Origin: Candidatus Gastranaerophilales bacterium
GTDB taxonomy: Bacteria; Cyanobacteriota; Vampirovibrionia; Gastranaerophilales; Gastranaerophilaceae
Assembly (NCBI GenBank): GCA_944324365.1
Contig: CALUWA010000005.1
Span: 1 to 64,000 of the forward strand
Length of the DNA stretch: 64,000 bases
Direction: 5' to 3'
Below the pieces are notes generated by a model. It made no database searches and was not told the origin of the DNA. It saw nothing but the letters and a program-made list of their open reading frames with translations. Below are positions 3,195 to 55,398 of this stretch, in pieces. The translations under genes and the position numbers were made by a program. Position 1 is the first letter of the stretch. Each line of letters starts with the position of its first letter.

Positions 3195-4278
3195 ATATAA
3201 AATCAGCCAATATCACATTGCTGATAAGAATTCCGGCATCCGATAACTTATATCCGGAAGAAGTTTTTATCAAATATTCGTAAGATAAATATTTCTCTAT
3301 AACCGGCTTATACATATCCTCAAAATCTATTGAAAATTTTTTATTTATTTCATTTATATCTATACCGCACATTTTTCTGAACCCGAGAAAAATCTCTTCT
3401 TCCAGCTTCTGCTGTTCAGTAAGAATAATTTCTTGGGCATGCTTTTTCGGATTTGCAATATATCCGCCGAGAGTAAGATTATTATTATATCTGACATGAC
3501 CGTCATAACCATGCGCTCCGGTGCCAAATCCATAATAGGTATTGTTATCCCAATAGTTTAAGTTATGCTTCGATTCAAAACCTTCAACGGCAAAATTACT
3601 TATTTCATAATGCACAAAATTGTTCTTTGTAAGAACATCTATTGCCTTTAAATACATATCTGCCTGAGCATCTTCATCAGGAAGATTTTCAGGCAGATGC
3701 GAATAAAAATAGCAGCCCTTATCAATTTTGAGCCCGTAAAGAGAAACATGCCGGATATCCAGACTTACAGCCTTCTCTAAATCAGCCTCAAAATCTTCAA
3801 CAGTCTGCAACGGAAGCCCGTATATAAAATCAAGACTAATATTTTCAAATCCGGCATCTTGTGCATTTTGTACACATTCCACAACCTGCTGCGGAGAATG
3901 TTTTCTGCCAATTATTTGTAATATTTCTTTATTAAAAGTCTGACAGCCGAAACTTAATCTGTTTACGCCAAGATTTTTCAAGTCCTCGAGATACTTTTTA
4001 TTAACAGTTTCCGGATTGACCTCCACGGTAAATTCTGTAGATTTTGAGATGTTCAATAAATCCGTGATTTCTTTAAAATCTTCTATTCTCAAAAGCGAGG
4101 GAGTTCCTCCGCCAAAATAGAGAGTATTTAAAACTTCACCTTTATAAAAATAATTGATTTCATCTTTCAGAGCATGAACATATTCCGGTATTTTTTCCGA
4201 CCGAGGAAAAGATACAAAAGAACAGTAATTACATTTCTGCCTGCAAAACGGGATATGAATATACACATTTTTTATCAT
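3193..4278 (-). CDS. hemW: HemW-type radical SAM protein (heme chaperone / coproporphyrinogen oxidase-like)
   Basis: 361 residues, close to the usual 370-380. The radical-SAM cluster motif CRQKCNYCSF (CxxxCxxC) is at residues 12-19 and lacks the extra cysteine of true HemN (CxxxCxxCxC), so HemW is the better call. YFGGGTPS is the SAM-binding glycine motif. HemW proteins bind heme and pass it to membrane targets; they are not the oxidase, although often annotated so. The start codon is preceded, six bases upstream, by an extended -10 (TGGTATAAT) and no ribosome site is visible, so the mRNA is probably leaderless. Confidence 0.9.
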   Translation of the reverse strand: MIKNVYIHIPFCRQKCNYCSFVSFPRSEKIPEYVHALKDEINYFYKGEVLNTLYFGGGTPSLLRIEDFKEITDLLNISKSTEFTVEVNPETVNKKYLEDLKNLGVNRLSFGCQTFNKEILQIIGRKHSPQQVVECVQNAQDAGFENISLDFIYGLPLQTVEDFEADLEKAVSLDIRHVSLYGLKIDKGCYFYSHLPENLPDEDAQADMYLKAIDVLTKNNFVHYEISNFAVEGFESKHNLNYWDNNTYYGFGTGAHGYDGHVRYNNNLTLGGYIANPKKHAQEIILTEQQKLEEEIFLGFRKMCGIDINEINKKFSIDFEDMYKPVIEKYLSYEYLIKTSSGYKLSDAGILISNVILADFI

Positions 4279-4352
4279 AAACCAATTATACCATGTAACT
4301 TGCCATCAACCGGATTATTTGCTATGATTTTTCTAAAAGGGAAGGAATGTGT

Positions 4353-9252: not shown

Positions 9253-10125
9253 TTATCCGTCATTATTAATAGCAAAATAAACATCTTTCAGACGTTTTTT
9301 GCTTATATGAGTGTACAATTGCGTAGTGGAAACGTCGCTATGACCCAAAAGCTCCTGAACAACTCTCAAATCAGCTCCGTTTTCAAGCAAATGCGTCGCA
9401 AAACTATGTCTTAGAGTGTGCGGAGAAATAGTTTTGTGAATTTTTTTCCCTTGCTCATGCACAAAAGTATAGATATCCTGGCGGTTAATCTCACGCCCGT
9501 CATCTGTCACAAGCAAATGCTTTTCATTAAGATTATATTTCTTTATTATAAATTCTCTTTGCGGAAGATATTTTTTCAAAGCCGCCACGGCCTTGCTCCC
9601 AAGCGGCACTATCCTTTCTTTGGAACCTTTTCCGAGGCATTGCAGATATTTTGATTTGATGTTTATGTTTGAAATATCAAGTTCGGAAAGTTCCGACACT
9701 CTCAACCCGCAGCCGTACAGTAATTCAATTATGACTTTTTGCATACAGGTTAAATTTTGGTTTAAAATATCTTCGATTTCTTTAACAGAAATTACTTTTG
9801 GCAAACGTTTCGGCAATTTTGGCTGTTCAATTGTGAGTGTAGGGTCGGTTTTGCATTTATCGTTTGCACAAAGCCATTTGAAAAATCCGCGCATAGAGGC
9901 AATTTTGCGCATAATACTTGTGGAAGAATACCGTTTTTCATGAAGATACAAAATATAAGAACTTATATTATTCCTGGAAACATCTTCAAGATTAGGAACG
10001 CCCTTTGAGGTGCAAAAATCCCAAAAATCGCTCAAATCACGGCGATAGGCATCAACGGTATTTTCGGAAAGTCCTTTTTCGACCTCCAAATATTCAAGAT
10101 ATTCAGCCAAAATTTGCACACTCAT
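9253..10125 (-). CDS. xerD: XerC/XerD-type tyrosine recombinase
   Basis: 290 residues. N-terminal SAM-like core-binding domain (about 1-90), then the catalytic domain with Arg in CGLRVSELSEL, Lys in GKGSKERIVPL, HTLRHSFATHLLENG (HxxR), LLGHSDVSTTQLYTH (His and the Tyr nucleophile). Single full-length chromosomal type, so dimer resolution at dif is the expected role; XerC versus XerD versus a single XerA-like enzyme cannot be told here. TATAAT ends six bases before the ATG and there is no ribosome site, so a leaderless transcript is likely. Confidence 0.85.
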   Translation of the reverse strand: MSVQILAEYLEYLEVEKGLSENTVDAYRRDLSDFWDFCTSKGVPNLEDVSRNNISSYILYLHEKRYSSTSIMRKIASMRGFFKWLCANDKCKTDPTLTIEQPKLPKRLPKVISVKEIEDILNQNLTCMQKVIIELLYGCGLRVSELSELDISNINIKSKYLQCLGKGSKERIVPLGSKAVAALKKYLPQREFIIKKYNLNEKHLLVTDDGREINRQDIYTFVHEQGKKIHKTISPHTLRHSFATHLLENGADLRVVQELLGHSDVSTTQLYTHISKKRLKDVYFAINNDG

Positions 10126-10179
10126 GCAAATATTATATATTCTTTTAATTACGATTTAATAATATAAACGTATTATTTT

Positions 10180-11185: not shown

Positions 11186-11214
11186 TTGACAAAAGTTAGA
11201 TATCGAACTATAAT
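11186..11214 (+). promoter_or_regulatory. Consensus sigma-70 promoter of the MarR gene
   Basis: TTGACA (11186-11191), a 17-base spacer and TATAAT (11209-11214): an exact consensus. The operator palindrome occupies the spacer. The ATG starts seven bases after the -10, at the expected transcription start, so the mRNA should be leaderless. Confidence 0.85.
11195..11208. promoter_or_regulatory. Operator palindrome 1 (GTTAGATATCGAAC)
   Basis: 14-bp near-perfect palindrome (one mismatched pair) filling the promoter spacer. The identical 14-mer recurs at 11661-11674. A bound dimer here would block RNA polymerase, the normal arrangement for MarR autorepression. Confidence 0.8.
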
Positions 11215-11220
11215 ACAAAT

Positions 11221-11643
11221 ATGGATCAGGATACAATTTCACTTATCTCAAGAATAAGAGAAAATGCGAATAAATTTATATGCAAAGAACTTGAAACAAG
11301 CGGGATTACAGGTATCGTGCCGTCGCACGGCGATATTATGGCAGTACTTTTTAAATCTCACAAATGTACAATGAAAGAACTTGCCGCAAATATCCGCAGG
11401 ACCAAAGCAACTCTGACCGTTTTGGTTGACAAGCTCGAAAAAATCGGCTATGTAAAGCGTGAAAAATCTTCACAGGACAGCCGAGTAACATATATTACCC
11501 TGACAAAAAAGGGACTTGACCTAAAACCTGTATTTGAAGATATTTCCAAAAAACTGAATAATCTTGTATTTACAGATATTTCAGAAAAAGAAGGTGAAAC
11601 TTTACACAAAATCCTTGAAAAAATTAATAAAAATTTAGAGTAA
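11221..11643 (+). CDS. MarR-family transcriptional regulator
   Basis: 140 residues. Winged-helix core: helix-turn-helix in MKELAANIRRTKATLTVLVDKLEKIGYV, then the wing KREKSSQDSRVTYITLTKKG with the conserved D-x-R. A C-terminal dimerisation helix follows. It probably represses itself and the cupin gene through the identical palindromes before each. The promoter -10 ends six bases from the ATG and no ribosome site exists. The effector is unknown; one cysteine lies near the N-terminus (FICKEL), so redox sensing of OhrR type is possible but not shown. Confidence 0.88.
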   Translation: MDQDTISLISRIRENANKFICKELETSGITGIVPSHGDIMAVLFKSHKCTMKELAANIRRTKATLTVLVDKLEKIGYVKREKSSQDSRVTYITLTKKGLDLKPVFEDISKKLNNLVFTDISEKEGETLHKILEKINKNLE

Positions 11644-11694: not shown

Positions 11695-12162
11695 ATGATG
11701 AACACACAATTTGAATTTGAAAAAAATCACAAACAGGCTTGCGGAATAGAATCCGGAGTTAATTTTAACAAGGCCGATATAGGAACATTTAGAGAAATAA
11801 AAGATTTTGCAATGGAAAACAAAGAATTAAAGATGGTAAGCGAAGGAAAAGTTTTTCTGCATGACCTGCTGAAACTTACGGGAGCGGAAATTTCAATAAC
11901 TTCCATCCCTGCAAACACAAAGGCACCTTTTTTGCATAAACACAAAAACAATGAAGAAATCTATATTGTACTTGCCGGCCAGGGGATTATGCATATAGAT
12001 GACAACGAAATTAATCTGAAAGAAGGAAGTATTGTAAGAGTTTCACCGGATGCAAAACGTTCTGTTGATAACAATTCTGATGCAGAACTGCTTGTTCTGT
12101 GTATTCAAACAAAAACCGGTTCTTTAGAAGGTTTTACTCTTGAAGATGCGGAGATTGTCTAA
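11695..12162 (+). CDS. Cupin-domain protein under MarR control
   Basis: 155 residues with GTGAGG before the ATG (a second ATG follows at once). One cupin barrel: motif 1 in PFLHKHKNNEEIYIVLAGQG (His-x-His and Glu metal ligands), motif 2 GSIVRVSPDAKRSVDN, where the usual histidine ligand is Arg. The metal site may thus be incomplete or differently built. An N-terminal extension of about 60 residues precedes the barrel. Similar MarR-cupin pairs often respond to small phenolic or oxidising compounds; the substrate is not known. Confidence 0.8.
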   Translation: MMNTQFEFEKNHKQACGIESGVNFNKADIGTFREIKDFAMENKELKMVSEGKVFLHDLLKLTGAEISITSIPANTKAPFLHKHKNNEEIYIVLAGQGIMHIDDNEINLKEGSIVRVSPDAKRSVDNNSDAELLVLCIQTKTGSLEGFTLEDAEIV

Positions 12163-13160
12163 TATCTTCCGTCACAGACGGTATTGCAGAAGATACATTT
12201 TCCTTCTTCGCTAAGGTTATATTCAATAAGCTCGTAACCGTTCCTGACAATAACAGGGCGGTTACAGCTTTTACAATAAGTAGCAGACGTTTCGATATTC
12301 GTCAAATTTCCGGTATAAACGTATTTTAATCCGGCATCCCTGGCTATAGAATAGGCTCTCAAAAGTGTAGATAATTCCGTATGCTTTCTGTCGGAAAATT
12401 TGTAACGCGGGAAAAATGCGCTGAAATGCAAAGGAACACAATCTCCCAAATTGGTTAAAATCCATTCGCACTCACGCTTTATCATTTCATCAGAATCGTT
12501 TTCGCCTTCTATAAGCATTGTCGTAAGCTCTACCCAGCAATCAGTTTCATTCACCGCATATTTTATTGTATTGAGTACCGGCTCAATATGGGCAAGACAG
12601 TTCTTTTTATAAAATTGTTCGCTAAAGCCTTTCAAATCAATATTTGCACCATCCATATATTTAAAAAATTCTTCTGCCGGTTCAGGGTTCATAAAACCCG
12701 AGGTTACAGCTATTGTCTTTATCCCCTCTTCACGGCACAATTTCGCGGTATCAATTGCGTATTCAAAAAATATAATCGGGTCATTATAGGTAAATGCAAC
12801 ACTTTTACAGTTATAATTTTTCGCAATCCGGACAATTTCATCAGGGGAAGTTTTATTTAAAAGCCTGATATCGGCTTTTGTTTTTGTAGTCTGCCAGTTC
12901 TGGCAAAACAGGCAGCCCATATTACATCCCAATGTGCCAAATGATAAGACCGGAGAGGCAGGATAAAACTGATAGAGAGGCTTTTTTTCAACCGGATCAA
13001 TTGCAAGCCCCGTATTATACCCGTATGACGCGAGAGTAATTTTTCCTTCCGAATTTTTTCTGACATGACAAAAACCTTCCTGTCCGGCAGACAAAACACA
13101 TTCACGCGGACATACAGTGCATTGAATTTTATCATCCTTTAGAATGTTTTGATAATTCAT
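12159..13160 (-). CDS. amrS: AmmeMemoRadiSam system radical SAM enzyme (AmrS)
   Basis: 333 residues from the ATG at 13160; an upstream in-frame start at 13199 would run into the divergent gene. N-terminal CxxC sites (CTVCPREC, GFCHVR), radical-SAM motif GCNMGCLFCQNWQ, and a C-terminal four-cysteine cluster (CKSC...CIFC). It pairs with the divergent Memo/AMMECR1 fusion, the known AmmeMemoRadiSam set; the reaction is unsettled. The -10 (TATAAT on the minus strand) lies in a palindrome shared with the divergent gene, seven bases from the ATG, with no ribosome site. Its stop overlaps the end of the convergent cupin gene by four bases. Confidence 0.88.
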   Translation of the reverse strand: MNYQNILKDDKIQCTVCPRECVLSAGQEGFCHVRKNSEGKITLASYGYNTGLAIDPVEKKPLYQFYPASPVLSFGTLGCNMGCLFCQNWQTTKTKADIRLLNKTSPDEIVRIAKNYNCKSVAFTYNDPIIFFEYAIDTAKLCREEGIKTIAVTSGFMNPEPAEEFFKYMDGANIDLKGFSEQFYKKNCLAHIEPVLNTIKYAVNETDCWVELTTMLIEGENDSDEMIKRECEWILTNLGDCVPLHFSAFFPRYKFSDRKHTELSTLLRAYSIARDAGLKYVYTGNLTNIETSATYCKSCNRPVIVRNGYELIEYNLSEEGKCIFCNTVCDGRY

Positions 13161-13161
13161 A

Positions 13162-13181
13162 AAAAGTATTATAATACTTTT
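13162..13181. promoter_or_regulatory. Perfect 20-bp palindrome forming a shared divergent promoter
   Basis: AAAAGTATTATAATACTTTT is its own reverse complement and fills all but one base of the 21-base gap between the starts of amrS (13160) and amrB (13182). It contains TATAAT on both strands (13170-13175 plus; 13173-13168 minus), each six or seven bases from its start codon. The two -10 boxes overlap, so initiation on one strand should exclude the other. Confidence 0.85.
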
Positions 13182-14519
13182 ATGGAAAAAATAAAACAAC
13201 CATCCGTTGCAGGTACATTCTATACGGCAGACAGAGAAGAGTTAAAGCGGCAAATAGAAGAGTTTGCGGCACAGAGTAAAAATACGTACAAAATTCCCGC
13301 TCGCGCGGTTATAGTTCCGCATGCCGGACTTATTTACTCGGGACGTCTTGCTTATGAAGGAATAAGCCAGCTTAACAGAAATTTAAAAAATCTTTTTATA
13401 TTTGCACCGGCGCATCGTGTCGGGTTTAGCGGAATTGCCGCAACCAGTTATGATTTCTGGGAAACTCCGCTTGGAAAAATCGGGATTAATAAACAAATAA
13501 ATACGGAATTAATTGAAAAATTCGGTGCAAATTACAATGATGATGCGATAGCTCCCGAGCATTCTCTGGAAATTCAGGTGCCGATAATTCAATCTGTTTT
13601 TGAGGATGTAAAAATTATCCCCGTACTTATCGGAAATGAAACTCCTGATAAAATTGAAGAAATAATTTCATATTACTATCAAAATTCGGAAAACGGTTTT
13701 GTAATTTCATCCGATTTAAGCCACTTTTTAAAACATGAAGATGCCCTGAAAATAGATAATTATACGGCCAACTTAATCGAAACCGGCACCGCAAATAATT
13801 TCAGCCACCAGCTCGCCTGCGGCGCAACAGGTATTCTCGGCCTGATACAATTTGCTAACAAAAATAACTCTTCAATGATAAGAATTGATATGACAAATTC
13901 TTCTGCGGTAACAGGCGACAAATCCGGTGTTGTAGGCTACGGAGCCTGGTTTATGTATGAAGGAGAAAAAAATAATTTTCTGAAAGAATACTATTCGGAT
14001 TTTATTCTTGATTTGTGCAGAACAAGTATAAAATCACAATTTGAAAAAGATCAAATTGAAATAAAATTTCCGCAGGTATTTGCCGAGGCCGGTGCAAGTT
14101 TTGTGACCCTGGAAAAACATGATATGCTGAGAGGCTGCATAGGCTCAATCATTGCTCACAGAAGCCTTATTGAAGATATTGTAATAAATGCGCAAAATGC
14201 GGCATTTAACGACCCTCGTTTTAACCCGGTTACAAAAGATGAAATACCTGATTTACAAATAGCGGTATCACTTCTTTCTACACCGAAACCAATGACATTT
14301 AAAGATGAAGATGATTTGCTTAACCAAATTCAGCCGTATAAAGACGGTATAATTATAAAAGACGGAAATTATCAGGCGGTATATCTTCCATCGGTATGGG
14401 AACAGCTTCCGGATAAGAAAGAGTTTTTAAATTCACTAAAAATGAAAGCAGGTCTAGCTCCTGATTATTTTTCAAAAACTTTTGAAGCATATCGTTTTGA
14501 AACAGTTTATATAAAATAA
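13182..14519 (+). CDS. amrB: AmmeMemoRadiSam proteins B and A fused (Memo + AMMECR1 domains)
   Basis: 445 residues from ATG 13182; the open frame extends upstream, but this start begins the family pattern KQPSVAGTFYTADREEL. Residues 1-270 are the Memo/AmrB dioxygenase-like fold (VPHAGLIYSGRLAYEG, PEHSLEIQVP, SSDLSHFL). Residues about 280-445 are AMMECR1/AmrA with its hallmark LRGCIG. The fusion of B and A, with the radical-SAM partner divergent, keeps the three-part system together. No ribosome site; promoter overlaps that of amrS. Confidence 0.87.
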   Translation: MEKIKQPSVAGTFYTADREELKRQIEEFAAQSKNTYKIPARAVIVPHAGLIYSGRLAYEGISQLNRNLKNLFIFAPAHRVGFSGIAATSYDFWETPLGKIGINKQINTELIEKFGANYNDDAIAPEHSLEIQVPIIQSVFEDVKIIPVLIGNETPDKIEEIISYYYQNSENGFVISSDLSHFLKHEDALKIDNYTANLIETGTANNFSHQLACGATGILGLIQFANKNNSSMIRIDMTNSSAVTGDKSGVVGYGAWFMYEGEKNNFLKEYYSDFILDLCRTSIKSQFEKDQIEIKFPQVFAEAGASFVTLEKHDMLRGCIGSIIAHRSLIEDIVINAQNAAFNDPRFNPVTKDEIPDLQIAVSLLSTPKPMTFKDEDDLLNQIQPYKDGIIIKDGNYQAVYLPSVWEQLPDKKEFLNSLKMKAGLAPDYFSKTFEAYRFETVYIK

Positions 14520-14582
14520 TTATAAAAAATCTACCCGACATACTAATGGAAAAATTTGTATAAGAATAATAAATATAATCTT

Positions 14583-17567
14583 ATGCAGTATTTAAAAAGA
14601 TTATTCATTTTAATAATTTGCTTTTCCATATCAACAGAAGTAAATGCAAATGATATTCAGGTAAGTACATTTTCCGAGCTCATAAACTCCCACCCTGTAA
14701 GCGGGGATACTTTGGATATTATAGATGATCTATCATCAGATGAATCCATCGGATATAATTTTTACGGACTTGACATAACATTTGAGGGAAATAACCATTC
14801 ACTGGACGGGAATAATACCTTTGCAGGTTTTGTGCTTAATCAGGAAAGTAATTTTAACAGAATGCGCATGATTGACTGTAAAGGTCAAACATACAATCGT
14901 TCTTCATTTGCCGGTGCAATTTATAACAGCGGAGGGGATTTACATATTACGGAATCTGCATTTTCCGGGAATTTTGTAGATGCCGCAGGATTTAACTTCG
15001 GGGTCGGAGGGGCGTTATATAATTTAAGCGGCGGAAGTATTGATATAAATAATGCTCTGTTTGATGATAACTATGCAAACGGTGCCTCAGCCTACGGCGG
15101 AGCTATCGCAAACGGTTACCAGACAACTAATCCTACATATATGAATATAAATAACAGTATCATCCGGAACAACTACGCAGAAGGGTCGGTAATCGCACAG
15201 GCAGGCGCAATTTTTAACAACGGGACTATTGATATAAACAATACCACTCTTGAAAGCAACCGCGTCCTTAACGGGGAAAACTATTTTTTGGAGGGCGGAG
15301 CAATATACAACCTTGGCACAATGAATATTACAAACAGTACAATAAATAACAACTATGCCGAGGGTACAAACACAATCGGAATGGGCGGAGCGATATACAA
15401 TCTGCAAACTCTTACAATAGACAATTCAACCATATCCGGCAACTACGTTAACACTAATTACGTTCCCACCGGCGGTGCAATTTATAACGATGAAAACAGT
15501 ACAACAATTATTACAAACACGAATATAACGGATAATTACTTAACCTCAGTTTCAGAAGAAGGCCGCGGCGGAGCAATATTCAATCGTTCTTCCATAACAC
15601 TGGAAAACTGTAAGTTTGACGGAAATCACATCAACACTACAGAAACAGGTGAAGGTGCAGCACTGTATAATGATTTAAACAGCAGTTCCGGTTCAGCCTC
15701 AAGTTCTGCGCAAATACTTAACACAACATTTAATAATAACTATATTTCATCAGAAACACAAACCGGAAAAGGCGCCGCTATTTTCAACCGTTCCGATATG
15801 ACAATTGAAAACTCAAATTTTACAAATAACTCTGTCAATGCTTTTGAAAGTTCCGAAGGCGGAGCCATTTATAACAACGGAAATACCGTACTTACAATAA
15901 AAAATTCAACATTTGAAAACAACAGCAGCAAATCCTCTACAGGTGAAGGCAAAGGAGGTGCAATTTATAACAACAATCTGCTGTCTATAGAAAACGGAAC
16001 TTTTCAAAATAATACCGATGACACAGGATTGAACGATATTTATAATACCGCTGACGGAACAATTGACTTTAATGCAGCAGATACAATAAATATTTTAAGC
16101 GGGATTTCCGGAAGCGGAACCCTGAATAAAAATGACAGCGGGGTTTTAAATCTCGGCGGACAAAACAAAAATTATACCGGCGATTTTAATTTTAATGGAG
16201 GTACAATAAATCTGCTTGCAGCCAGCAGTTATTTTAATGCGCAAAATTCCAATTTTTCAAATAATGTTAACTTCAACATGCAAAATAGCTATATAGACAG
16301 TATTAACTTCGGAAATCTAAATCTTGACGGCACTACAAATATTTTTGCAGATATGAATCTTAATACCAAAATTATGGATACCGTTGCCGCAAATTCCATA
16401 AACGGCAGCGGAGAATTATTTGTACAGAACCTTGCAATACAGGGAGCTCCCACCGGAGTAGATTTTTCAATTCCCTTTGCAAATTCGGTCTTAAAAGATT
16501 ATGTTCGCTACAATAGCACAACGATTGATACCCCTATTTATAATTACCAGGTAAGTTACAATTCTTCTGACGGAAATTTTGATTTTAACCGCAGCGGTTT
16601 TAACTCAAGTATTTATGCCCCCGCAGTAGCGGCACAACTTGCCGGATATCTTACACAACTGGAAACATATAAAAATGTTTTTTCAAACCTTGATATGGTA
16701 ATGATTACCCCGCAAGAGTTCTATCAGGGACTGCAATACAAAAATAAAACAGCCGCAGCGGGACAATTTGTGTTTTCACCGATTATCATGCCGGAAGAAC
16801 GGAGAGGAGTTTGGTTTAAACCTTATGCATTTTTCGAAAAAGTTCCGCTTGACAACAGCCCTAAAGTTTCTAACGTAAGTTACGGCAGCTTATTCGGCGT
16901 TGAAAGTAATCTGGAAAAATTAAAACACGGCTGGTATACCCTTTATGGTGCATACGCCTCATATAACGGTTCTCACCAGGCATATAACGGGAACAGCATA
17001 TATAATAACGGCGGACTGTTAGGAGTAGATGCGGTATTTTACAAAGGCAACTTTTTTACTGCCTGGACAGCAAACGCCGGTGCTAACGCTGCAGAAGCTT
17101 CAACGTATTTCGGAAACGATAATTTCGGAATGTTTAATACTGGCATAGCTCAAAAAACAGGATACAACTTCAAAACGCTTGAAAATAAATTAATAATCCA
17201 GCCAAGTTTGCTCATGTCATATTCATTTATAAACACTTTTAACTACACAACAGATGCAAATGTACATATAAATGCCGACCCGCTTCACGCAATACATATT
17301 GAGCCGCAGATAAAACTTATCGGAAATTTTAAAAAGTTTCTTCAGCCTTATATATGCGTATCTTTTGTGTGGAATATTATTGACGATACAAAATTTCAGG
17401 CAAACGACGTTTTTTTACCGGAGCTTTCCGTTAAGCCGTATGTCCAATACGGAGTAGGGATACAAAAACGCTGGGGCGAAAGATTAACCGGATTTTTTGA
17501 AACAATGATAAGAAACGGCGGCAGAAACGGTGTCGGGCTCCAATTCGGCCTGAGGTTAAGTATATAA
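14583..17567 (+). CDS. Pmp-like autotransporter adhesin (GGAIYN repeats, C-terminal beta-barrel)
   Basis: About 994 residues from ATG 14583; a TTG at 14556 is the alternative. LFILIICFSISTEVNA is a signal peptide. Residues about 80-490 hold roughly a dozen GGAIYN or GGAIFN motifs alternating with FxxN motifs (FSGN, FDDN, FENN), the same two repeats that mark chlamydial polymorphic outer membrane proteins, so a right-handed beta-helix passenger is expected. The last ~260 residues are aromatic-rich alternating strands ending GVGLQFGLRLSI, an autotransporter barrel. Such a protein needs an outer membrane and BAM insertion. Adhesion is the likely role. Confidence 0.85.
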   Translation: MQYLKRLFILIICFSISTEVNANDIQVSTFSELINSHPVSGDTLDIIDDLSSDESIGYNFYGLDITFEGNNHSLDGNNTFAGFVLNQESNFNRMRMIDCKGQTYNRSSFAGAIYNSGGDLHITESAFSGNFVDAAGFNFGVGGALYNLSGGSIDINNALFDDNYANGASAYGGAIANGYQTTNPTYMNINNSIIRNNYAEGSVIAQAGAIFNNGTIDINNTTLESNRVLNGENYFLEGGAIYNLGTMNITNSTINNNYAEGTNTIGMGGAIYNLQTLTIDNSTISGNYVNTNYVPTGGAIYNDENSTTIITNTNITDNYLTSVSEEGRGGAIFNRSSITLENCKFDGNHINTTETGEGAALYNDLNSSSGSASSSAQILNTTFNNNYISSETQTGKGAAIFNRSDMTIENSNFTNNSVNAFESSEGGAIYNNGNTVLTIKNSTFENNSSKSSTGEGKGGAIYNNNLLSIENGTFQNNTDDTGLNDIYNTADGTIDFNAADTINILSGISGSGTLNKNDSGVLNLGGQNKNYTGDFNFNGGTINLLAASSYFNAQNSNFSNNVNFNMQNSYIDSINFGNLNLDGTTNIFADMNLNTKIMDTVAANSINGSGELFVQNLAIQGAPTGVDFSIPFANSVLKDYVRYNSTTIDTPIYNYQVSYNSSDGNFDFNRSGFNSSIYAPAVAAQLAGYLTQLETYKNVFSNLDMVMITPQEFYQGLQYKNKTAAAGQFVFSPIIMPEERRGVWFKPYAFFEKVPLDNSPKVSNVSYGSLFGVESNLEKLKHGWYTLYGAYASYNGSHQAYNGNSIYNNGGLLGVDAVFYKGNFFTAWTANAGANAAEASTYFGNDNFGMFNTGIAQKTGYNFKTLENKLIIQPSLLMSYSFINTFNYTTDANVHINADPLHAIHIEPQIKLIGNFKKFLQPYICVSFVWNIIDDTKFQANDVFLPELSVKPYVQYGVGIQKRWGERLTGFFETMIRNGGRNGVGLQFGLRLSI

Positions 17568-26796: not shown

Positions 26797-27711
26797 ATGG
26801 CAGTACCAACATATCAAGATTTCATGTTACCAACACTGAAACTTATTGATGACAATTGTGAACATAAAAGTAGAGATATTGTCGAAAAAGTTGCAGACAT
26901 GCTAGGCTTATCATATGAAGATAAACAAGAAAAATTGCCAAGTCAAACTCAAGCCACATATTATAATCGTGCTATGTGGGCAAGAACATATCTAAAAAAA
27001 GCTTGCTTACTATATTACCCTGCAAGGGGAGTAATTAAGATTACTCAACGTGGTATAGACTTATTAAAAACGAATCCTAAAAAAATTACAAAAAAAACAT
27101 TATTACAATATGACGAATTTCAAAAATTTCAAAATATGGTTAATACTGACAAGAGCGATTCAGATAACTCTGAATCAATTGAAGAGCAAAAAACTCCTGA
27201 CGAATTAATAGCAGAAGCAAGAACCATATTAACATCTCATTTAGAAGCTGATTTATTATCCAAAATTGCAGATAATAGTCCAACTTTTTTTGAGGAATTG
27301 GTTGCAAAATTATTATTATCTATGGGGTATGGTGGTTCGGAAAGTGATATACTCCAAAACAGAGGTAAATCTGGAGATGAAGGAATTGATGGTATTATTA
27401 AGCAAGATGTCTTAGGTCTAGATAAAATTTACATACAAGCAAAAAAATGGTCCAATAATATTTCTAGACCGGAGGTACAAAAATTTGTGGGTGCAGTACA
27501 TGGACAGAATGCAAACCGAGGAATATTTATTACAACATCGTCTTTTACTAATGAAGCAAAAGAATATGCAAAAAAGATTAATTCAAATATTATTCTTGTA
27601 GATGGTAAACAACTTGCGAAATTAATGATTGAATACAATGTTGGTGTTCAAATCAAAGCTACTATTCACATAAAAAAAATTGATGAAGATTTTTTTATAG
27701 AGGGTGAATAA
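26797..27711 (+). CDS. mrr: Mrr-type type IV restriction endonuclease
   Basis: 304 residues, 23 bases after the DUF262 gene. N-terminal Mrr winged helix (residues 5-90; YYNRAMWARTYLKKACLL, ITQRGIDLL). Acidic linker near 112-135. C-terminal PD-(D/E)xK domain with E167, GDEGIDGI (D198) and IQAKKW (Q214, K216), the QxK variant usual in Mrr, then VGAVHGQNANRGIFITTSSFT. It targets methylated DNA in known members. Expected to act beside the DUF262/DUF1524 enzyme. Confidence 0.9.
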   Translation: MAVPTYQDFMLPTLKLIDDNCEHKSRDIVEKVADMLGLSYEDKQEKLPSQTQATYYNRAMWARTYLKKACLLYYPARGVIKITQRGIDLLKTNPKKITKKTLLQYDEFQKFQNMVNTDKSDSDNSESIEEQKTPDELIAEARTILTSHLEADLLSKIADNSPTFFEELVAKLLLSMGYGGSESDILQNRGKSGDEGIDGIIKQDVLGLDKIYIQAKKWSNNISRPEVQKFVGAVHGQNANRGIFITTSSFTNEAKEYAKKINSNIILVDGKQLAKLMIEYNVGVQIKATIHIKKIDEDFFIEGE

Positions 27712-54572: not shown

Positions 54573-54627
54573 TTAAAATAGCATTAATTTTTATAGAGTT
54601 TATCATACATACATATATAATATTTTT

Positions 54628-55398
54628 ATGCATTCTATAAGTATTTGTAAATTTTGTGGAAAAGAAAAAAAGTTGATAAAAGCTCATATTATTCCTCGCA
54701 ATTTTTATCTCGACTATAAAAATGAACAGTATATGAGAGTTGATGAATTGTCTGGTAAATTTACAATTAAGCAAAATGGTTCCTATGATAAAAACATATT
54801 ATGTGCAGAATGTGATGGAAAAATTCTAGGCAAGTTTGATCAAGAGGGATACCGAATTTTATTGGATGAAATATATAAACATTGTTTATATCGCGATGAT
54901 AAAGTAAAAATTTATAATCTGTCGTCCGAATATTATGACTATAACAAATTAAGAAAATTTTTTATCTCAATATTGTGGAAAGCTTCAATTTCTTCTTTAC
55001 CGGAATATTCATATATACAGCTTGGTGAATATGAGGACAAAGCTCTTGCAATATTAAAAGGAATTGCAAGTTACGAAGATTTATTCAAAATATACATATA
55101 TAAATATCCTAAAGATAAAGACTATAACAAATTTACATATATTACAAAAACTAAAATTGCAAATTATAAAACTTTTGTACTTAATATGGCAGGATGTATG
55201 ATTTTTATAATTCTAAATGGTAAAAATCATCCATATACAAAAGGAAATCATCCTATATCAAAAATGATTATAAATAATAAAAATTTTTGTATTATAGAAA
55301 GTGAAGACTTATATGTTCAACATCAACGCATGGCTGAACAAAAAATGCAGGAAATGTGGAGGAAAGGATACAAGCCCCCATTTGCTCCTAAATTGTAA
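54628..55398 (+). CDS. HNH-like zinc-site protein, paralogue of the gene at 28766
   Basis: 256 residues. CKFCGKEKKLIKAHIIPRNFYL and LCAECDGKILGKFDQEGYR give two CxxC pairs around a conserved His, the same as at 28766-29527; KLRKFFISILWKASIS and ALAILKG also match. The divergence between the paralogues is large in the C-terminal half. TATAAT ends six bases before the ATG with no ribosome site, so it is probably leaderless. Stand-alone copy at the right edge of the accessory region. Function unknown; nuclease-like by inference. Confidence 0.6.
   Translation: MHSISICKFCGKEKKLIKAHIIPRNFYLDYKNEQYMRVDELSGKFTIKQNGSYDKNILCAECDGKILGKFDQEGYRILLDEIYKHCLYRDDKVKIYNLSSEYYDYNKLRKFFISILWKASISSLPEYSYIQLGEYEDKALAILKGIASYEDLFKIYIYKYPKDKDYNKFTYITKTKIANYKTFVLNMAGCMIFIILNGKNHPYTKGNHPISKMIINNKNFCIIESEDLYVQHQRMAEQKMQEMWRKGYKPPFAPKL

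Follow-up and report, generated by a model that had tools for sequence, protein, structure and literature searches.

We analysed a window of 64,000 nucleotides from a Candidatus Gastranaerophilales bacterium (contig CALUWA010000005.1, positions 1 to 64,000), which carries two divergent genes of the AmmeMemoRadiSam system. On the reverse strand, amrS (12159-13160) encodes a 333-aa AmmeMemoRadiSam-system radical SAM enzyme (TIGR04337, 477.7 bits against a cut-off of 220). On the forward strand, a fused amrB-amrA gene (13182-14519) encodes 445 aa matching TIGR04336, TIGR04335, PF01875 and PF01871, in which a Memo domain (AmmeMemoRadiSam B) is joined to an AMMECR1 domain (A). The TIGR04337, TIGR04336 and TIGR04335 matches are all above their cut-offs and confirm the names amrS and amrB that had been given to the two genes from the sequence. 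The radical SAM, B and A components are encoded together, with A and B in one protein. The closest named relatives are Candidatus Gastranaerophilales MAGs, with amrS identities of up to 80%. Directly 3’ of amrB we observe a frame of 1003 aa (window 14556-17567) which, by eye, begins like a signal peptide, contains Asn-rich repeats, and resembles an autotransporter barrel in its C-terminal part.

The start codons of amrS (13158-13160, reverse strand, read as CAT on the forward strand) and amrB (13182-13184) are separated by an intergenic gap of 21 bp (13161-13181, AAAAAGTATTATAATACTTTT). The last 20 bases of the gap (13162-13181, AAAAGTATTATAATACTTTT) form a perfect palindrome. The core of the palindrome, ATTATAAT (13168-13175), consists of two overlapping -10 hexamers: a forward TATAAT at 13170-13175, placed 6 nt 5’ of the amrB ATG, and a reverse TATAAT at 13173-13168, placed 7 nt 5’ of the amrS ATG, with 4 bp in common. 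The original prediction had proposed this 21-bp gap, its 20-bp palindrome, and the overlapping TATAAT on both strands, and all of them are present as described; the range it reported, 13160-13182, locates the gap correctly but extends by one base into either start codon. The gap contains no Shine-Dalgarno motif. No other perfect palindrome of at least 20 bp occurs in the window, and 464 kb of the genome contain three in all, this one included. The 20-mer occurs as a single copy in the host genome.

Conservation of the gap across the bacterial family

AmrB was detected in 190 of the 288 genomes of the host’s family, and we inspected the upstream region at about 100 family loci, which as relatives are non-independent samples. 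The core ATTATAAT is found between the genes in 68 of the 69 distinct loci with a divergent amrS, and the lone exception (L189) has a TATAAT and a TATACT in nearby registers. This is the unconditioned figure, the per-column information having been computed on gaps selected for ATTATAAT. Most divergent relatives also keep the gap length of 21 bp. Of the 56 short-gap pairs, 53 have the TATAAT at a distance of exactly 6 nt from the amrB start, and the remaining three at 7 or 8 nt. The family consensus of the gap is approximately AAAATGTATTATAATACTTTT, where the flanks of the core vary. Outside the family, 19 genomes sampled from other families of the class show no amrB match in the approximately 650-750 bp upstream of amrS, and the divergent arrangement, as far as these genomes indicate, seems particular to the family.

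The comparison of the gap in related genomes, which had been suggested as a check, gives different outcomes for the promoter and for the palindrome. The promoter core and its spacing are kept family-wide, beyond what chance would give, but the 20-bp palindrome is confined to the studied species, and the longest palindrome in the gap of any other relative is 16 bp. The outer symmetric pairs do not co-vary (shuffle P of 0.17-0.95 for five of the six pairs, and 0.04 for one), and independent shuffling of the columns puts the expected number of complete 20-bp palindromes in 49 gaps at 0.85. Because the arms, one pair excepted, match no more than independent columns would, and because almost one such palindrome is expected by shuffling, the palindrome is, judged from these alignments, a chance extension of the conserved 8-bp overlap. 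Only that overlap is near-invariant, and the proposal that the palindrome acts as a functional unit is not supported.

Predicted leaderless starts in the host genome and in the relatives

We surveyed a 464-kb sample of the host genome with 387 gene-sized frames, for which counts are approximate as the gene calling is mechanical and the start codons are unverified. TATAAT is sharply enriched at a distance of exactly 6 nt from the first ATG, where TATAAT-N6-ATG precedes 13 of 381 genes with 0.69 expected per offset (Poisson P of about 6e-13). A second enrichment, at 34-38 nt, is broader and fits ordinary leadered genes. A Shine-Dalgarno-like motif appears in none of the 24 leaderless-type genes, compared to 179 of the 361 others. 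In the whole host genome, TATAAT-N6-ATG occurs 115 times and the reversed control pattern 37 times. The amrB side, with its spacing of 6 nt, sits at the genome’s peak, and the amrS side, with 7 nt, is one nucleotide over the preferred distance. Other TATAAT-N6-ATG starts in the window are found at 11209-11223 and 26962-26976 and 54616-54630 on the forward strand, and at 10123-10137 and 4276-4290 on the reverse strand; among the genes they precede are that of a MarR-type regulator (11221) and, at 10125, a tyrosine-recombinase-like gene whose name was assigned by eye from its sequence.

Relatives in which the two genes lie further apart allow the two hexamers to be considered separately. In longer gaps, the box is mostly 7 nt from amrS (L009, L020, L159, L171-L173 and L191); in L112 it is instead 6 nt from amrB, and two distinct -10 boxes at leaderless spacing are found in L162. 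In L009 and L021, the amrB start is displaced and a Shine-Dalgarno-like AAGGAG is present, and the -10 is still 7 nt from amrS. When amrB has no divergent amrS, TATAAT is 6-7 nt from the start in 14 of 25 cases, and the other 11 have no TATAAT at leaderless spacing. When amrS is elsewhere in the genome, two of four cases (L230 and L231) have TATAAT-N7-ATG, and the other two have no TATAAT before amrS. Leaderlessness of amrS and amrB, as read from these spacings, is common but not obligatory, since two of the four relocated amrS and 11 of the 25 non-divergent amrB lack a leaderless-spaced TATAAT. In three loci of genus g33 (L176, L177 and L178), amrS is undetected and amrB has a TATAAT about 36 nt upstream together with an AAGG-type Shine-Dalgarno motif; this amrB would be a leadered form of a gene that is predicted leaderless elsewhere in the family. 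As a whole, the separated cases present the pattern expected of two superimposed leaderless promoters, which argues against a promoter with one direction only.

The original prediction of a shared -10 with leaderless starts thus finds support in the core and spacing kept across the family, in the leaderless class of the host genome, and in promoters that have separated and would still be leaderless. We consider that the gap very probably acts as a minimal bidirectional promoter with one -10 region, read by the housekeeping sigma factor, with predicted transcript starts at or next to both ATGs.

Alternative readings of the gap

The perfect 20-bp dyad spans the two overlapping -10 boxes, as would an operator at which a dimeric repressor, for instance the MarR-type protein of 11221-11643, encoded about 1.5 kb from the gap, shuts off both genes. 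A comparable arrangement is known from the csoR-cueA divergon, where a CsoR box lies across overlapping -10 elements (PMC5057107). An operator dyad should be kept among relatives, but the arms outside the 8-bp core vary freely and without co-variation, and the full dyad exists only in the studied species. The exact site is also unique in the genome, with no copies upstream of other genes, and the only other GTATTATAATAC copy sits in a coding frame. We therefore reject the operator as the main reading and regard it as quite unlikely. Another possibility is that transcripts begin upstream, inside the neighbouring coding regions, and that the palindrome would be a 5’-leader hairpin beside the start codon. 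The strand is foldable (z of -2.7 as single-stranded DNA), and there are weak consensus matches within the flanking genes. Against this, the arms are neither conserved nor compensated, the Shine-Dalgarno motif that such a leader calls for is absent, and the spacing from TATAAT to the start is fixed family-wide, all of which makes a leader hairpin barely credible.

A different case is that of a promoter that is real in one direction only. TATAAT is nearly equal to its own reverse complement, so the second hexamer could be present simply because the consensus is nearly symmetric, and a -35-like hexamer exists towards amrB only. Against this stands the behaviour of the separated genes: longer gaps keep the box 7 nt from amrS, L112 keeps it 6 nt from amrB, and each gene often retains its own box when the two are apart. 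Moreover, the gap offers neither gene another -10 at leaderless spacing. A one-directional promoter is in our judgement highly improbable, and the bidirectional promoter with a shared -10 region is the reading we retain.

A predicted bidirectional promoter and its known counterparts

In the proposed bidirectional promoter, RNA polymerase bound in either orientation would melt the single -10 region ATTATAAT, since each strand carries a TATAAT and the two hexamers share 4 bp. Rightward transcription would start at the A of the amrB ATG or its adjoining base, and leftward transcription likewise at the amrS ATG. Both mRNAs would be leaderless, and no Shine-Dalgarno site would take part in their translation. 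What remains of the palindrome in the studied species would be incidental. The actual start sites, the relative strength of the two sides, and the lack of a regulator specific to the pair are features that we infer.

The two directions differ in their possible -35 elements. Towards amrB, a TTGATA at 13149-13154 (forward strand), within amrS codons 3-4 and with a 15-bp spacer, is suggestive of a -35 element that may aid the rightward promoter. The Gln at amrS codon 4 is encoded by CAA in all 48 relatives that have Gln there, compared to a CAA share of 66% elsewhere in amrS and of 70% among early codons in the host genome. This constancy hints at a -35 element towards amrB, a hint weakened by shared ancestry. 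On the amrS side, we see by eye no TTGACA-like hexamer at 16-18 bp. As a -35-like element is found on one side only, equal output in the two directions is not to be assumed from the sequence. In E. coli, polymerase competition was absent at the basal level from the five bidirectional promoters that were tested, and it appeared only when one side was strongly activated (PMC12825309). The idea that polymerase must choose one strand holds for a single binding event, but mutually exclusive expression does not follow from it, and with -35 sides that look unequal and E. coli counterparts free of basal competition, the claim of a “mutually exclusive, balanced” expression is unsupported. That selection has maintained a symmetric and dually leaderless unit, in which the orientation of the polymerase couples or opposes the outputs of the radical SAM enzyme and its Memo/AMMECR1 partner, seems to us unlikely.

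Bidirectional promoters with a shared -10 are widespread in bacteria. The class, described by Warman, Grainger and colleagues, is defined by a distance between starts of 7-25 bp (PMC12825309, PMC10268837), with 18, 10 and 23 bp as the commonest distances (PMC12825309). The amrS/amrB gap resembles them in having opposed transcripts from one -10 region, with hexamers overlapping on both strands and a predicted distance between starts of 21-22 bp, which falls in the 7-25 bp range. It differs from them in the register of the overlap, which results in 21-22 bp instead of the most frequent 18, and in that both transcripts are predicted leaderless mRNAs, whereas the second RNA of the Warman and Grainger promoters is in many cases a non-coding antisense transcript. 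The csoR-cueA divergon of Bradyrhizobium liaoningense also has overlapping -10 elements between divergent genes (PMC5057107). There, one gene is leaderless by 5’ RACE and the other has a 42-nt leader (PMC5057107), and a CsoR operator overlaps the promoter, whereas amrS and amrB are both predicted leaderless and have no evident operator. Each side by itself looks like the -10-adjacent leaderless genes, which have TATAAT/TANNNT about 12 bp before the start and no Shine-Dalgarno (Zheng 2011, PMC3160421; PMC12340547). Such genes are reported in large numbers chiefly from Actinobacteria and Deinococcus-Thermus (PMC3160421, PMC12340547), and in the open-licence literature we found no report of them in Gastranaerophilales/Melainabacteria. 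In the part of the open-licence literature on leaderless genes and bidirectional promoters that we covered, we found no pair leaderless on both sides of one box. The bacterial bidirectional promoter is known, then, and what appears to be new here is that both of its sides are predicted to be leaderless.

With 21 bp, both sides predicted leaderless, and conservation across the family, this is apparently near the smallest possible divergent promoter between protein-coding genes. The joined, partly separated and fully separated cases make up a natural series for the effect of -10 sharing on expression. The finding also adds a non-photosynthetic and so far little-studied sister group of the cyanobacteria to the bacteria with leaderless genes of the -10-adjacent type.

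Within the host genome, we searched for the divergent leaderless pattern with spacers 7/6 and 6/6. The 7/6 form has amrS/amrB as its sole site. The 6/6 form is found at C2:158548-158573 (L226 1501-1526, G000; CATATCATTATTATAATTATATCATG), where overlapping -10 boxes lie beside a RelA/SpoT-type gene. We considered this site as a second divergent leaderless pair and rejected it, the ATG on the opposite strand being out of frame with the neighbouring gene, which starts 56 nt further; by its sequence it would be leaderless at most on the RelA/SpoT-type side. In locus L118, a perfect 22-bp palindrome (GTTTTTGATTATAATCAAAAAC, 14424-14445) also has ATTATAAT at its centre.
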